Positions 31,482 to 37,639 of a DNA stretch of 64,000 bases are shown here, piece by piece. The DNA comes from Thermovirga lienii DSM 17291 (lineage in GTDB: Bacteria; Synergistota; Synergistia; Synergistales; Thermovirgaceae), in NCBI GenBank assembly GCA_000233775.1, contig CP003096.1, positions 1,266,501 through 1,330,500 of the forward strand, read 5' to 3'. A model generated the notes under the pieces. It searched no databases. It saw nothing but the letters and a program-made list of their open reading frames with translations, and had not been told where the DNA came from. The translations under genes and the position numbers were made by a program. Numbering within the stretch: position 1 is the first letter of the stretch; the number at the start of each line of letters is the position of its first letter.

Positions 31482-31615
31482 GGCAACATCGCTCCAAACA
31501 ATGATTTTTTCTTTACAGTGCATGCATTTACGAAATCTTTCACATTTTGGTGTATAATTCGATATTGTGTGTTAGAATTCTCACAGCTCTATTACTCCGG
31601 GGGGGAGATGTGCGG

Positions 31616-32113
31616 ATGACAGATGTTGTTAAGGAATCTACCGAAGAAATGCAACAGGTTTTGGACAAAATCATCGAAAAGTACCGGGGAAAACCGGGAA
31701 GCACCATAGGCATTTTGTCCGCTATCCAAGAGAAGTTTGGCTACCTACCTGAAGAGGCAATGGATTATGTCTCAGAATCTTTGAACATACCTTCGGCCGA
31801 GATTTTTGGTGTTGCCTCCTTCTACTCCATGTTCCGTTTCCAACCAGAAGGAAAATACGTGGTGAGATTATGCAGAGGAACCGCCTGCCATGTCCAAGGT
31901 TCATGGCTGGTTGGAGAGCAACTGCAAAGGCATCTGGGCATTGAAGAAGGGGGTACTACCAAAGATGGCCTTTTCTCTCTTCACTACGTAGCATGCCTTG
32001 GGTGCTGCAGCCTAGCACCAGTTATGATGGTCAACGGAACAGTTCATGGCCGTCTTACGCCAGACAAGGCTGTAGAAGTTTTGGAATCCTACAGACGTGA
32101 AGGCCAAGAATAG
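31616..32113 (+). CDS. NuoE/HndA-type [2Fe-2S] subunit
   Basis: A 165-residue thioredoxin-like [2Fe-2S] protein, the 24-kDa-subunit type of complex I and of soluble NAD-linked bifurcating enzymes. Ligands are Cys86, Cys91, Cys127 and Cys131 (LCRGTAC and ACLGCC). The segment EIFGVASFYSMF near residue 62-73 is characteristic. ATG at 31616 follows a GGGGGGAG site. A -10-like TATAAT (31553-31558) lies 58 bp upstream without a good -35. It heads a three-gene operon with a NuoF-type subunit and a 1241-residue fusion. Confidence 0.93.
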   Translation: MTDVVKESTEEMQQVLDKIIEKYRGKPGSTIGILSAIQEKFGYLPEEAMDYVSESLNIPSAEIFGVASFYSMFRFQPEGKYVVRLCRGTACHVQGSWLVGEQLQRHLGIEEGGTTKDGLFSLHYVACLGCCSLAPVMMVNGTVHGRLTPDKAVEVLESYRREGQE

Positions 32114-32130: not shown

Positions 32131-33897
32131 ATGACAAAAACAGTCATTAAAGTAGGAATGGCAAGCTGTGGTATAGCTGCAGGAGCCCGTCCAGTTTATG
32201 AGTACCTGCTAGATAAGCTGGGCGACAGAAAAGACGTAGAAATAAAACAAGTAGGTTGTATAGGACTCTGTTTCAGAGAACCGCTGGTGGAAGTAATCAA
32301 AGATGGTACCAGAGTAATGTACGGAGAGGTAGACATTGATTCCCTCGAAAAAATAATAGAAACCCACATTCTAAACGGCACCCCTGTCGAAGAAAAAATA
32401 ATCTTAAGCGATTCCACAGAAGCTCCAGAAAACAAAACCATTGACAAACAGGTTCGAATAGTCCTCAGAAACACGGGAATAATAGATCCCACAAAAATTG
32501 ATGAATATCTGGAAAGAGACGGCTACAAAGGACTCACGAAGGCTCTACAGATGGATCCTGAGGCAGTAATAGACGAGATCCTGGAAAGCGGCCTGAGAGG
32601 AAGAGGCGGAGCAGGATTCCCCACCGGTCTAAAATGGAGGTTTGCGAGAAAAGCTGCAGGTGACGAAAAATACGTTGTTTGCAACGCCGACGAGGGTGAC
32701 CCAGGAGCTTTCATGGACCGATCAGTCCTTGAAGGAGACCCCCATTCTGTCATAGAAGGCATGTTGATCTGTGGTTATGCCATAGGAGCAAAGCACGGGA
32801 TAATTTATTGTAGAGCTGAGTATCCTCTGGCTATAAAACACCTCAACATCGCAATTGAACAAGCAAGAGAAAGAGGTTTCCTGGGCAAGAACATTCTAGG
32901 ATCGGGCTTTGATTTCGATATTTACATCAAGGAAGGTGCCGGGGCGTTCGTGTGCGGCGAAGAGACGGCACTAATGGCCTCGATAGAGGGTAAAAGAGGC
33001 ATGCCCAGACCACGACCGCCATTTCCTGCAAACAAAGGAATCTTTGGAAAACCAACAAACATCAACAACGTTGAAACGCTGGCGAATGTGGCATGGATAA
33101 TCCTTCACGGCGCCTCCGAGTTCAATAAGTATGGTACGGGCAAGAGCAGAGGGACCAAAGTGTTCGCCCTCGCTGGAAAGATAGTGAAAGGCGGCTTGGT
33201 TGAGGTTCCAATGGGAATGCCCCTAAGAGAAGTTATCTTCGATGTTGGAGGCGGTATTCCAGACGGAAAGGAATTTAAGGCTGTTCAGCTTGGAGGCCCA
33301 TCAGGCGGATGCCTTCCAGCGTCCGAGCTTGACACTCCTGTTGACTACGAATCCATAAACGCCACCGGCGCAATCATGGGATCTGGTGGAATGGTAGTCA
33401 TGGACGAAGATACCTGCATAGTCGACGTCGCGAAATTCTTCCTGAGCTTCGTCCAAAGCGAATCCTGTGGCAAGTGCCCCTTCTGTCGTATAGGAACCAA
33501 GAGGATGTTGGAGATCCTTGAGAGAATATGTGACGGAAAAGGAACTCCGGAAGACTTGGATCTGCTGGAAGACCTGGCCTACAAGATAAAGGACGGATCA
33601 CTTTGCGGCCTAGGGCAAACTGCTCCTAACCCCGTTTTGACTACGCTAAAATATTTCCGCCACGAATACGAGGCCCACGTCAACGAGAAAAAATGCCCCG
33701 CAAAGGTATGTACAAACCTTATTCATTACACAATAGATCCAGATACGTGCATAGGCTGCACAAAATGTTCTAAGGTCTGCCCTGTGGGCGCCATTGAAGG
33801 CCAAATCAGACAGCCTCACAAGATAGATGACTCTGTTTGCGTACGTTGCGGACAGTGTAAGTCTGTATGCCCAGTAAAAGCCATCTCCGTAGAATAA
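32131..33897 (+). CDS. NuoF/HndC/HydB-type NADH-binding flavoprotein subunit
   Basis: A 588-residue NAD-binding subunit of soluble NADH-linked complexes. Order: N-terminal thioredoxin-like [2Fe-2S]-type domain (residues 1-90, Cys13, Cys43, Cys47 visible); NADH/FMN domain (GLRGRGGAGFPTG near 152, VCNADEGDPGAFMDR near 180, GAGAFVCGEETALM near 270); SLBB-type domain; [4Fe-4S] motif ESCGKCPFCRIGTKRM near 444; and a C-terminal double ferredoxin domain (CIGCTKCSKVCP, CVRCGQCKSVCP). This layout is that of HydB/HndC/NfnB-type enzymes rather than membrane complex I. It feeds or takes electrons from NADH for the fusion protein encoded next. Spacing is 17 bp on each side. Confidence 0.95.
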   Translation: MTKTVIKVGMASCGIAAGARPVYEYLLDKLGDRKDVEIKQVGCIGLCFREPLVEVIKDGTRVMYGEVDIDSLEKIIETHILNGTPVEEKIILSDSTEAPENKTIDKQVRIVLRNTGIIDPTKIDEYLERDGYKGLTKALQMDPEAVIDEILESGLRGRGGAGFPTGLKWRFARKAAGDEKYVVCNADEGDPGAFMDRSVLEGDPHSVIEGMLICGYAIGAKHGIIYCRAEYPLAIKHLNIAIEQARERGFLGKNILGSGFDFDIYIKEGAGAFVCGEETALMASIEGKRGMPRPRPPFPANKGIFGKPTNINNVETLANVAWIILHGASEFNKYGTGKSRGTKVFALAGKIVKGGLVEVPMGMPLREVIFDVGGGIPDGKEFKAVQLGGPSGGCLPASELDTPVDYESINATGAIMGSGGMVVMDEDTCIVDVAKFFLSFVQSESCGKCPFCRIGTKRMLEILERICDGKGTPEDLDLLEDLAYKIKDGSLCGLGQTAPNPVLTTLKYFRHEYEAHVNEKKCPAKVCTNLIHYTIDPDTCIGCTKCSKVCPVGAIEGQIRQPHKIDDSVCVRCGQCKSVCPVKAISVE

Positions 33898-33913: not shown

Positions 33914-36900
33914 ATGGAACGTACAGTTTCTGTAATCCTAAATGGGAAAACCGTAAAGGGATACCCGGGACAAAAAATACTGGACCTATGTGCAGAAAAT
34001 GGTATTGAGATACCCACACTCTGTTACGATAAGCATCTTTCCTTGTATGGAGGATGCTCCATATGCCTGGTGGAAGTCAAAGGTGCAAGAAGCCTGGTTA
34101 GGGCATGCGCTACCCCTATCCAGGAAGGAATGGAGATAGAGACCCATACGGAACGAGTCAAGGGAGCCAGAAAGCTTGCTCTAGAGCTTCTACTTTCAGA
34201 CCACGTTGGAGATTGTAGACCTCCCTGTCAGTTGGCCTGCCCTGCCCGTGCTGATGTAAAAAGCTACGTAAACCTGGCAGCGGAGGGCAAATTCCGTTCA
34301 GCTTTGGATGTACTTCATCAGGGAATCACCCTCCCTGCAAGCATAGGGCGGGTCTGCCCTGCTCCGTGCCAAGAGAAATGCCGAAGGCATTTCGTGGATG
34401 AAGAACCTGTATCAATAAGAGAGATCAAACGATACATAGGCGACTGGGGATTGAGCCAAGGAGATTTGGGAGAGATACCTCAGATAAAGGAAAATGGAAA
34501 GTCTGTAGCCATAGTAGGAGGAGGCCCGGCAGGCTTATCTGCGGCCTACTACCTCAGATTGAAGGGTTACAAAGTAACTATATTTGAAAAAGAATCCAAA
34601 CTTGGCGGAATGATGCGCTATGGTATCCCAGATTACAGACTTCCACAGGAGATACTTGAAAAAGAATGCCAGTGGTTGCTCGCACACGGCATAGAAACCA
34701 GAATGAACACTGCCCTGGGCAAGGACGTAACCCTGGAGGAACTAAAAAAGCAATATGACGCCGTACTGTTGGCCATGGGCTGTTGGAAATCCACCCCCAT
34801 GCGCGTCCCTGGTGAAGACCTTCCGGGAGTCATAGGTGGAATCGAATTCCTGTACAAAGTAAACAATAAACAAGAAACCGGTATCGGCAAAAAGGTTGCC
34901 ATAATAGGCGGCGGTAACACCGCTATGGACGCAGCAAGATGTTCCCTGCGCGAAGGTGCTGAAAAAGTCTACGTAGTCTATCGCAGAACCAGAGAGGAAA
35001 TGCCCGCTGAAGACATTGAGATAGAAGAAGCAATGGAAGAAGGGGTAGAATTCATTTTCTTGGCCGCACCCACTGCAATAGAGGGCAATTCCAGGGTAGA
35101 ATCGATAGTCTGCGAGAAGATGGCCCTCGGCGCACCGGATGCTTCTGGAAGGAGAAGACCCATACCCACCGGAGAAACCTTTACCTTGGAAGTAGACACT
35201 GTAATAGCAGCCATAGGCCAAAGAATTGACCTTTCTTCACTGCCGCAAGACATCCATGACGGCAAATGGCTCAAGGTCGACGAGCACTTCGCCACTCCAT
35301 ATGAAGGAGTTTTCGTGTGCGGCGATCAAAAAACTGGCCCTGGCATAGCCGTTGAAGCCATTGGAAGTGGCCACTGGGCAGCGGAATCCATTCATCATTA
35401 TCTCACAGAGGGCATTCCCCATAGGCCCTTTGAGTGCGACGTAGTAAGAGATGATCTTGGACCTGAAGATTTCTTGGATGTAGAAAAACAGCCTATGGAG
35501 AAACCCTTGATCCTGGAACCACAAGAAAGGTTATCCAAGCCCTACGAAGAGTTCAATAAGGGGCTCACCGAAGAGCAGGTTACAATAGACGGCAGCCGAT
35601 GCATGAAGTGCGGATGCCCAGATATCCATGAATGTAAGCTAAGGGAGTACAGCATAGAATACGAAGCCTCACCCGATGCTTTCCCGAAAGAGCTATACTC
35701 TAGGCCAGACCGTCCAGAGGAAGCCAATACGTACTACATAAGAAACATGGATAAATGCATCCAGTGCGGAGTCTGCGTCAGGACATGTGAAGAAATAGCC
35801 AATTGTCATGCCATAGACTTCCAAAAACGAGGTATCAAAACCTTCGTTGGCCCCGGTGTAGACCGCACAATAGAGCATTCGGACTGTATATTCTGCGGAC
35901 TTTGTGTGCAAAACTGTCCCACCGGAGCCCTTGTAGAGAGAACATCTTTCGGCATATCCAGACCTTCAAAGACAAAACTATCGAAGACCATATGCACCTA
36001 CTGCAGCGTCGGTTGTGAACTGGTTGCTCACACGGACCTTTTGACAGGAAGAATAGATAACGTAACCGCAGACCTAGACAATCAAATGTCCATAAACAAA
36101 GGGAAAATATGCGCAAAGGGTCGATTCGATTGGCAATTCGTCAATAGAGACGACAGGATAAAAACTCCTCTAATCAAGGTAAACGGCACTTTCCAAGAGG
36201 CCTCTTGGGTTGAGGCACTGGAGTTCGTGTCCAAAAAACTGATGGCCATAAAAGACCAATACGGGTCTGATTCCATTGGTTTCTGTGCCTCTAACCATTG
36301 CACCAACGAAGAAAACTACCTACTTCAGCGTTTTGCCAGAGAAGTTGTTGGTACTAATAACGTCGATACTGTAGACAGCACATACTACATGCCTGTAATA
36401 AATGGCCTCACATCCACCCTTGGAACAGTTGCCATGACTAATGATTTCGACTCACTCAAGAATGCAAACGTGATTCTGTTGCTTGAGGCAAACCTGGCTG
36501 AAACCCATCCAGTAGCAGAGATGTGGATAAAGGAGCTCAAAAAAGCTTCTTCAACAAAGCTTTTGATAAGCAACTCCACCCCAACCAAACTGGATAGATA
36601 CGCAGACATTACATTGCAGCAAAATAAGGGCACAGCTGTGGCACTGCTTAACGGGTTAATGCACATTATAGTGGAGGAAGGCCTTTACAATAGTGATTAT
36701 GTTATGAACAACACAGAAAACTTCGGTGAGTTGAAGAAGCTATTGTCCGAGTACTCTCCTTCTAAGGTAGCAGCCATAACAGGAATTCCTGAGAAAGCCC
36801 TAAGAGAGGCTGCCAGAACCTTCGCATCTGGACCCAACTCCGCAATAATATTCGGAGATTGCCTATTGCAGCTTGAAAACGCAGAAGAAACCGTAAAATC

Positions 36901-37639
36901 CATAGCCAACTTGGCTCTACTCTGCGGAATGCTTGGAAGGCCAGGTACAGGCATTTATCCTGTAGTAGGCGCAAGCAACACTGTAGGAGCTTTTGATATG
37001 GGATGCACGCCACGCCTCTTACCAGGCTATCTGCCATCCAATGATGAAACGGCGCGCAGCAAGGTAGAAGCCATTTGGAACTGCTCCCTTCCAACCAGAG
37101 AAGGCCATGGGATACTCGACATGATAGATAAAGCATCAAAAGGAGAACTAAAAGCAATGTACATCATGGGTTCTGACATAGCAAAGAAGCTCTCCTGCAA
37201 AGATGCTCTATCCAACCTAGACCTACTTGTGGTGCAAGACATATTCCTTAACGAAACTGCTCAACTGGCAGACGTAGTGCTGCCAGCGGCGTGCTGGGGA
37301 GAAAAGGACGGCACAAAGACAAACGCCTGCAGGGTCGTTCAGAAGACATCCAAAGCTGCCGAAGCACCCCAAGATGCAAGGCCCGACTGGTGGATACTGA
37401 CTCAACTTGCTGAAGCCTGTGGACGTTCCTGGTCCTTTGAAAACCCAGAGTCCATAATGAACGAAATAAGCAATGTGGCGGATATTTATGGTGGAATAAC
37501 TTACGACAGGCTAAACACCAAGGGCTTAGCATGGCCTTGCTGGAACTTAAAACATGAAGGAACACCTATACTGTTTACAGAAGGTTTCCACAACAGAAAG
37601 GCCCGTTTCGCTCCGTGCGAATGGAAGTCCGCTAACTAA
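33914..37639 (+). CDS. Fusion: 2Fe-2S / GltD-type NADPH-FAD module / ferredoxins / inactive formate-dehydrogenase-like domain (1241 aa)
   Basis: Domains in order: NuoG-type [2Fe-2S] (Cys37, 48, 51, 65); GltD-type Fe-S domain (Cys101/105/109 and Cys148/152/156); GltD flavin/NADPH module (VGGGPAGLSA at 201-210, IGGGNTAMDA at 331-340, VVYRRTREEMP near 354); ferredoxin clusters (CMKCGC near 563, CIQCGVCVRTC near 615, CIFCGLCVQNC near 658); and a formate-dehydrogenase alpha-like domain whose [4Fe-4S] ligands are intact (Cys694, 697, 701, 733). In that domain the catalytic Sec/Cys position after NNVD is Tyr824 (codon TAC at 36383), the next His is Tyr825, and the usual C-terminal pterin-dinucleotide domain is absent. 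So it is probably not a formate dehydrogenase. With NuoEF-type partners it recalls the Stn-type NADH/ferredoxin:NADP transhydrogenase. Function is inferred. Confidence 0.9.
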   Translation: MERTVSVILNGKTVKGYPGQKILDLCAENGIEIPTLCYDKHLSLYGGCSICLVEVKGARSLVRACATPIQEGMEIETHTERVKGARKLALELLLSDHVGDCRPPCQLACPARADVKSYVNLAAEGKFRSALDVLHQGITLPASIGRVCPAPCQEKCRRHFVDEEPVSIREIKRYIGDWGLSQGDLGEIPQIKENGKSVAIVGGGPAGLSAAYYLRLKGYKVTIFEKESKLGGMMRYGIPDYRLPQEILEKECQWLLAHGIETRMNTALGKDVTLEELKKQYDAVLLAMGCWKSTPMRVPGEDLPGVIGGIEFLYKVNNKQETGIGKKVAIIGGGNTAMDAARCSLREGAEKVYVVYRRTREEMPAEDIEIEEAMEEGVEFIFLAAPTAIEGNSRVESIVCEKMALGAPDASGRRRPIPTGETFTLEVDTVIAAIGQRIDLSSLPQDIHDGKWLKVDEHFATPYEGVFVCGDQKTGPGIAVEAIGSGHWAAESIHHYLTEGIPHRPFECDVVRDDLGPEDFLDVEKQPMEKPLILEPQERLSKPYEEFNKGLTEEQVTIDGSRCMKCGCPDIHECKLREYSIEYEASPDAFPKELYSRPDRPEEANTYYIRNMDKCIQCGVCVRTCEEIANCHAIDFQKRGIKTFVGPGVDRTIEHSDCIFCGLCVQNCPTGALVERTSFGISRPSKTKLSKTICTYCSVGCELVAHTDLLTGRIDNVTADLDNQMSINKGKICAKGRFDWQFVNRDDRIKTPLIKVNGTFQEASWVEALEFVSKKLMAIKDQYGSDSIGFCASNHCTNEENYLLQRFAREVVGTNNVDTVDSTYYMPVINGLTSTLGTVAMTNDFDSLKNANVILLLEANLAETHPVAEMWIKELKKASSTKLLISNSTPTKLDRYADITLQQNKGTAVALLNGLMHIIVEEGLYNSDYVMNNTENFGELKKLLSEYSPSKVAAITGIPEKALREAARTFASGPNSAIIFGDCLLQLENAEETVKSIANLALLCGMLGRPGTGIYPVVGASNTVGAFDMGCTPRLLPGYLPSNDETARSKVEAIWNCSLPTREGHGILDMIDKASKGELKAMYIMGSDIAKKLSCKDALSNLDLLVVQDIFLNETAQLADVVLPAACWGEKDGTKTNACRVVQKTSKAAEAPQDARPDWWILTQLAEACGRSWSFENPESIMNEISNVADIYGGITYDRLNTKGLAWPCWNLKHEGTPILFTEGFHNRKARFAPCEWKSAN

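Follow-up and report, generated by a model that had tools for sequence, protein, structure and literature searches.

A 64,000-nucleotide stretch of Thermovirga lienii DSM 17291 (the window, in whose numbering all open reading frame (ORF) coordinates are given) was analyzed for a gene that encodes a 1241-residue StnC-like subunit ending in a formate dehydrogenase (FDH) alpha-like domain. This gene (33914..37639), identified by ORF translation, Pfam and PDB matches, lies with its partners in the operon order stnA-stnB-stnC, which encodes NuoE-, NuoF- and NuoG/GltD-type subunits; the NuoE- and NuoF-like genes are directly 5' of the StnC-like gene, the intergenic gaps are 17 and 16 bases with ribosome-binding sites, and all features described here for the window are on the + strand. 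StnA (31616..32113; PF01257, E 4e-52) is a NuoE/HydC-like, [2Fe-2S] thioredoxin-like subunit, for which the ATG at 31616 is a likelier start than the TTG at 31547 of the listed ORF. StnB (32131..33897; PF01512, PF10589 and a Fer4 dicluster) is NuoF/HydB-like, with an FMN/NADH site, the NuoF [4Fe-4S] cluster and a C-terminal 2x[4Fe-4S] domain, and is presumed to be the bifurcating core of the complex.

The initial annotation of this locus had described the 1241-residue protein as a fusion of 2Fe-2S, GltD-type NADPH/FAD, ferredoxin and FDH alpha-like domains, and the ORF translation and Pfam searches bore this out. Matches were found to Fer2_4 (residues 3-79), Fer4_20 (101-182), Pyr_redox_2 (197-486) and a Fer4 dicluster (614-672) and, in the C-terminal part, to Molybdop_Fe4S4 (688-744) and Molybdopterin (748-1167). 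Residues 1-100 (33914..34213; PF13510) comprise a NuoG-type [2Fe-2S] ferredoxin domain, whose ligands C37, C48, C51 and C65 are invariant in seven Thermovirgaceae, and the start of a His97/Cys-rich motif. Residues 101-500 (34214..35413; PF14691, PF07992 and motifs) form a GltD/NfnB-like module that carries C101/105/109 and C148/152/156 and retains the FAD and NADP(H) motifs GGGPAG, GGGNTA and YRR. The StnC-specific CxxCxCx5C motif, recognized by inspection of ligands and motifs, occupies residues 563-574 (35600..35635), and a ferredoxin-like 2x[4Fe-4S] domain spans residues 611-673 (35744..35932; PF12838). Residues 686-1241 (35969..37636; PF04879, PF00384, TIGR01591 and the tree described below) constitute a dead FDH alpha domain that ends before the Molydop_binding domain. 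Altogether, the subunit contains seven cluster ligand sets (C37/48/51/65, H97-C101/105/109, C148/152/156, C563/566/568/574, C615-625, C658-668 and C694/697/701/733), and which of these serves which individual cluster is a prediction from sequence. The subunit scored 300.4 bits with the NuoG model TIGR01973, under the curated cut-off of 470.

In the PDB, each of the three subunits was matched best by the bifurcating NfnABC/StnABC structures 9bov, 8oh5 and 9n5u. StnA matched best to 9n5u_C, 9bov_C, 7t2r_C and 8oh5_A, and StnB to 9n5u_B, 8oh5_B and 9bov_B, so that at the sequence level the top matches of this pair are Nfn-Bfu/HydBC cores, as in a BfuBC core. These matches point to a complex of the Stn (Nfn-Bfu) type, the assignment that the initial annotation had proposed from the NuoE and NuoF partners, and it also agrees with the literature, where T. 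lienii DSM 17291 Tlie_1249, a protein of 1,241 aa that is 37% identical to Sporomusa StnC, was listed as an Stn homologue by Kremp 2020 (PMC7483475). The matching protein length makes it almost certain that the window gene is Tlie_1249. In Sporomusa, the FdhF domain of StnC was reported to be catalytically inactive, with clusters C1/C2 off the electron path, and removal of this domain or of its cluster ligands blocked assembly of the tetramer (Kumar 2023, PMC10482914). A bifurcating transhydrogenase with a dead molybdopterin domain, and the placement of this gene in that group, are therefore already known.

The catalytic triad of FDHs consists of Cys-His-Arg (PMC8965080). In the T. lienii protein, Tyr824-Tyr825 (TAC TAC, 36383..36388) stand at the selenocysteine (Sec, TGA)/Cys-His position, as the initial annotation had read them, and they align with the Cys/Sec-His of known FDHs and of near relatives. 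Residue 1018 (36965..36967) is a Val that replaces the catalytic Arg of the RGQNNVQG motif, and the conserved DPR (887-889) and MGITQ-H (982-987) stretches are also lost. The FDH [4Fe-4S] ligands C694, C697, C701 and C733 are retained, together with Lys735. Pfam found no Molydop_binding domain (PF01568), the C-terminal pterin-binding domain, in the protein, so that the predicted combination of kept cluster ligands and missing last domain was confirmed, and no remnant of this domain was present downstream of the gene or elsewhere in the window. With the Fdh-alpha model TIGR01591, the protein scored 550.7 bits over model positions 1-552 of 672, under the cut-off of 666.25, and naming the gene by its FDH domain, as automatic annotation was expected to do, would mislead for Thermovirga.

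A separate subunit might have supplied the missing domain, a case that the initial annotation had raised. A search for PF01568 in T. lienii (1,999,646 bases in two contigs, with a chromosome of 1,967,774) and in the family genomes found only an unrelated 628-aa enzyme, which holds the sole Molydop_binding domain of the T. lienii genome, 66 kb from the StnC-like gene; in the relatives the domain is covalently attached. The 628-aa frame of this molybdopterin oxidoreductase (L001) lies outside the window at chromosome positions 1232877-1236149, near a hypB-like gene. The congeneric genome G183 encodes a 1243-aa protein, 85% identical to that of T. lienii, which has both Tyr residues, lacks the Arg and is truncated in the same way. 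Because G183 shares the Tyr pair, the Arg loss and the truncation, these losses in T. lienii are not due to chance.

We surveyed orthologues in 188 Synergistota genomes, ten of which belong to the Thermovirgaceae, including the two of Thermovirga (T. lienii and G183). The Thermovirgaceae orthologues are 64-65% identical over residues 1-1239, and in complete copies the frame continues to 1367 residues. It was found that the orthologue of every fully covered family genome but one contains one in-frame TGA, which in six genomes (L005-L010) falls at residue 824 of the window protein numbering and in a seventh, the fragment L054, at the equivalent position. The Sec context in these relatives is CAHL-U-HSPT or CAHL-U-HSAT, and G184 has Cys instead of Sec (CARL-C-HSPT). 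Wherever the regions are covered, the relatives keep the His, the RGQNNVQG Arg and the C-terminal domain, and L005 passes TIGR01591 with 841.6 bits. Within the family, Tyr-Tyr, the loss of the Arg and the loss of the last 126 residues are limited to the two Thermovirga genomes. The full-length fusions of the other Thermovirgaceae (L004-L009; G180-G187) represent the orthologous gene with identical domain order, and differ from the T. lienii protein in having Sec or Cys, His, Arg and the C-terminal domain, which makes them Nfn-Bfu/Fdh-Bfu hybrids in which an apparently live FDH is linked to both an NADPH module and a bifurcating core. Gene callers may have shortened such UGA-containing genes in relatives of Thermovirga. 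SelB was found in 10/10 family genomes and a tRNA-Sec above the cut-off in eight, including T. lienii; loss of the selenocysteine machinery as a cause of Sec loss was ruled out, since T. lienii keeps both components.

Sliding identity along the T. lienii protein was StnC-like up to about residue 620 and stand-alone FdhA-like thereafter. A breakpoint scan placed the switch at residues 613-627, and the StnC-to-FDH change of ancestry was mapped to about residues 613-640 (nt 35750-35833). In a tree of residues 1-600, the Thermovirgaceae fell inside the Synergistota StnC clade (100/100). The tree of residues 640-1243 grouped them within Synergistota FdhA (100/100), at a great distance from the separate clade that the Synergistota StnC domains formed. 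The C-terminal domain of the T. lienii protein, which groups among Synergistota FdhA, is not orthologous to the FdhF-like domain of StnC; plain inheritance of an StnC remnant was ruled out by the FDH-domain tree. The trees and the identity switch therefore indicate that StnC exchanged its C-terminal part for the one of a selenocysteine FDH resident in the genome. StnB of T. lienii fell in the Stn-type StnB clade, and Stn-type StnB is also found in Thermovirga as a genus, G184 and genus g4. In genera g2 and g5 (L047, L048 and L049), the apparently live hybrid occurs with NuoE and NuoF of the FDH type and with an additional small gene for a ferredoxin-like protein, and with no Stn-type partners. 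This distribution of partners suggests that the hybrid arose within an Stn operon and that one subclade later swapped the partners of its bifurcating core. The initial annotation missed this ancestry: the domain is not an old StnC remnant but derives from a selenocysteine FDH that lost its active site recently and that still appears to be live in sister genera.

To describe the decay of the FDH domain, we used the 190 residues that are invariant in 15 live Synergistota FDHs, with the live sequences left out singly as controls. T. lienii differs at 54/190 of these residues and G183 at 50, compared with 0-17 in the live controls; the corresponding count for the NADPH module was 2/184. The Thermovirga branch had 0.58 substitutions per site in the FDH part vs 0.13 in the NADPH module, and the live branches were similar in both. 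FDHs need fdhD. Neither Thermovirga genome (99.96 and 99% complete) contains this gene, which was found in five of the eight family genomes with the live form. Across the 188 Synergistota genomes, fdhD was present in 34/42 with this FDH type vs 12/146 without it (p 8e-20). Both trees place G184, the Cys form, as sister to Thermovirga, and a Cys intermediate is therefore a simple path, by which Sec would have changed to Cys (TGA to TGT/TGC) and then to Tyr (TAT/TAC) through single changes each.

The dead domain is still constrained in sequence and fold. Between T. lienii and G183, the NADPH module had a proportion of nonsynonymous differences (pN) of 0.042 and the FDH part one of 0.137, at a saturated proportion of synonymous differences (pS) of about 0.72-0.74, from which we conclude that the dead domain remains under constraint, some threefold less than the remainder. 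A model of residues 600-1241 had a mean predicted local distance difference test (pLDDT) score of 78, with the first 84 residues poor. The modelled FDH domain gave template modelling (TM) scores of 0.80-0.84 to active FDHs vs 0.68-0.70 to StnC, so that the structure prediction that had been proposed as a check revealed a kept FDH fold, nearer to active FDHs than to StnC. The initial annotation had called the dead domain a wire or scaffold. The reading of the domain as dead was supported and agrees with the biochemistry of StnC, and, by analogy with that enzyme, a scaffold appears preferable to a wire.

We consider it highly probable that the locus encodes an Stn-type complex whose tail is a transplanted selenocysteine FDH, inactivated in Thermovirga and kept most likely as a scaffold. 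This reading draws on the sequence losses, the ancestry of the two halves, the intact relatives, the loss of fdhD and the continued purifying selection shown above; the activities of the complex, the scaffold role and the path through Cys are putative. Some observations weigh against it. An approximately unbiased (AU) test did not reject an N-module tree in which the Thermovirgaceae branch outside the other Synergistota StnC (p 0.195), most family genomes besides T. lienii are fragmented, so that the absence of fdhD from G181, G184 and G185 is uninformative, and the dS of the Thermovirga gene pair has reached saturation, which makes dN/dS a bound only. Because of the AU result, the step in which a dead StnC domain came first is marked as uncertain: that the replaced StnC tail was already dead is likely, given the outgroup StnCs and the Stn-type partners.

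An ordinary StnC, whose FDH-like tail would be the same vertically inherited inactive remnant as in Sporomusa and other Synergistota StnC, could explain the shared operon, the same N-terminal 620 residues and the likewise absent triad, and the protein has been treated as a plain Stn homologue (PMC7483475). However, the tail is far nearer to live FDHs and groups within Synergistota FdhA at full support, its model fits active FDH folds better than StnC, and the family orthologues retain Sec/Cys-His-Arg and the C-terminal domain, and we regard this explanation as very unlikely. Less remote, though still improbable, is a complex that serves NADPH, NADH and ferredoxin without bifurcation, as a simple transhydrogenase or ferredoxin:NADP reductase; sequence, the sole basis here, does not reveal bifurcation, but the best matches of StnA and StnB, over their full length and with the C-terminal ferredoxin domain included, are the bifurcating StnAB, NfnBC and HydBC cores. 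The domain might also still bind molybdopterin, as one pterin or through a partner protein, and perform other chemistry with a Tyr ligand, since it retains its fold, [4Fe-4S] cluster and Lys735 under continued selection. The positions of Arg, His and Sec, the DPR and MGITQ-H stretches and the whole last domain are gone, the genome supplies no such domain in another protein and fdhD is lost, all of which leaves this proposal with hardly any credit. Least probable is that the gene is decaying as a pseudogene or reflects a sequencing error, with which the faster evolution of the FDH part would agree, but the gene is intact in two species with identical losses, the NADPH module is 93% identical between them and pN/pS is about 0.18 in the dead domain.

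In the transplanted-FDH reading, NADPH would reduce the FAD of the GltD module, the Fe-S clusters of the C subunit would then carry the electrons on to StnB, and NAD+ and ferredoxin would each receive a share of them from the FMN/Fe-S core of StnAB, or the flow would be reversed. StnC of a Thermovirgaceae ancestor would have exchanged its C-terminal part, from about residue 620, for that of a resident selenocysteine FDH, giving an NADPH/NADH/ferredoxin/formate enzyme that apparently persists in sister genera, where formate electrons should enter via the [4Fe-4S] clusters that StnC has as a dead branch. Within Thermovirga, Sec would have been replaced by Tyr (probably via Cys), His by Tyr and Arg by Val or Ala, the last pterin-binding domain cut off and fdhD lost. 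The protein would thereby have reverted to a transhydrogenase, with the FDH fold and [4Fe-4S] cluster kept, most likely as an assembly scaffold as in Sporomusa.

We think it rather probable, from the genomic data, that the Thermovirgaceae represent a new type of the Bfu family, in which one subunit combines a live selenocysteine FDH with an NADPH module feeding an NAD+/ferredoxin bifurcating core, linking formate, NADPH, NADH and ferredoxin and turning the dead-branch clusters of StnC into a live wire. In Thermovirga the FDH would then have died and the other parts survived, so that the fate of StnC's FdhF domain was repeated independently. What appears new relative to the known enzymes is the transfer of a live FDH into an Stn complex and its later inactivation in a single genus, while live orthologues are extant elsewhere in the family. 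Nfn-Bfu and Fdh-Bfu have been treated as separate groups (PMC9304861), an Stn cluster adjoining a separate FDH gene has been noted (PMC10327494), and no description of an NADPH-FDH-Bfu hybrid was found in the papers searched. The inactive FdhF domain of StnC was previously termed an evolutionary remnant of unclear structural role. The Thermovirgaceae show a comparable fate at close range, with Sec, Cys and Tyr orthologues at 64-65% identity. In two species, the active site, last domain and maturation gene are gone and the fold and cluster kept, as if a working enzyme domain were turning into a structural part. The choice between remnant and scaffold becomes testable by domain swaps between near-identical proteins, and the complex of the live relatives would act as a hub for four substrates, with relevance to CO2 reduction.

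Sporomusa ovata StnABC (PMC7483475, PMC10482914; PDB 8OH5/8OH9) resembles the T. lienii complex in gene order, in its three subunits and in a Fer2-GltD-NuoG-like C subunit that ends in an inactive FdhF-like domain, and the Sporomusa enzyme is without formate activity. Its FdhF-like domain is an old, strongly diverged remnant, whereas that of Thermovirga derives from a live Synergistota selenocysteine FDH and was recently inactivated. Caldicellulosiruptor saccharolyticus NfnABC (PDB 9BOV/9BP5) and Thermococcus sibiricus Nfn-Bfu (PMC9304861), which PDB 9N5U probably represents, belong to the same Nfn-Bfu class and are the nearest solved homologues. Both differ in the FdhF-type domain as Sporomusa does, and the archaeal enzyme holds just part of the C-terminal domain. 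Type 1 Fdh-Bfu (e.g. of Carboxydothermus hydrogenoformans, PMC9304861) and the stand-alone Synergistota FdhA with NuoEF stand for the source of the C-terminal domain; they share a BfuA with a pterin FDH domain beside a BfuBC core, but have an intact active site and no GltD/NADPH module.

A scan beyond Synergistota, with 80 loci among the matches listed, gives a lower bound on the distribution outside that phylum. Single-chain fusions of an NADPH module with an FDH that has an intact triad were found in at least L078, L079, L081, L082, L084, L086 and L147 (Desulfobacterota, Chloroflexota and one further genome), and no StnAB genes were present in such loci where about 5 kb upstream was readable. 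Among the matches listed, the hybrid combined with an Stn-type core was found only in Thermovirgaceae. The L078, L079 and L082 proteins share the fusion of a Fer2/GltD part to an intact FDH (L082 matching mainly from the GltD part on), but differ in having no StnAB within 5 kb upstream and in their N-modules, which are distant in the tree. These three sit in Wood-Ljungdahl gene clusters, without NuoEF within 5 kb, and are possible one-chain NADPH-dependent CO2 reductases.

A second NADPH-linked complex was observed in T. lienii outside the window, at chromosome positions 1531084-1535964 on the - strand (L156:4585-9465). There, a 1054-aa NuoF-GltD fusion adjoins a NuoG-like protein of 568 aa whose molybdopterin domain is truncated, and this complex is possibly another transhydrogenase with a dead FDH/NuoG-like part. 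Operons of NuoE, a NuoF-GltD fusion and a selenocysteine FdhA (L064, L065, L089, L128 and L129), in Synergistota and Deltaproteobacteria, are another wiring of the NADPH module to formate dehydrogenase.

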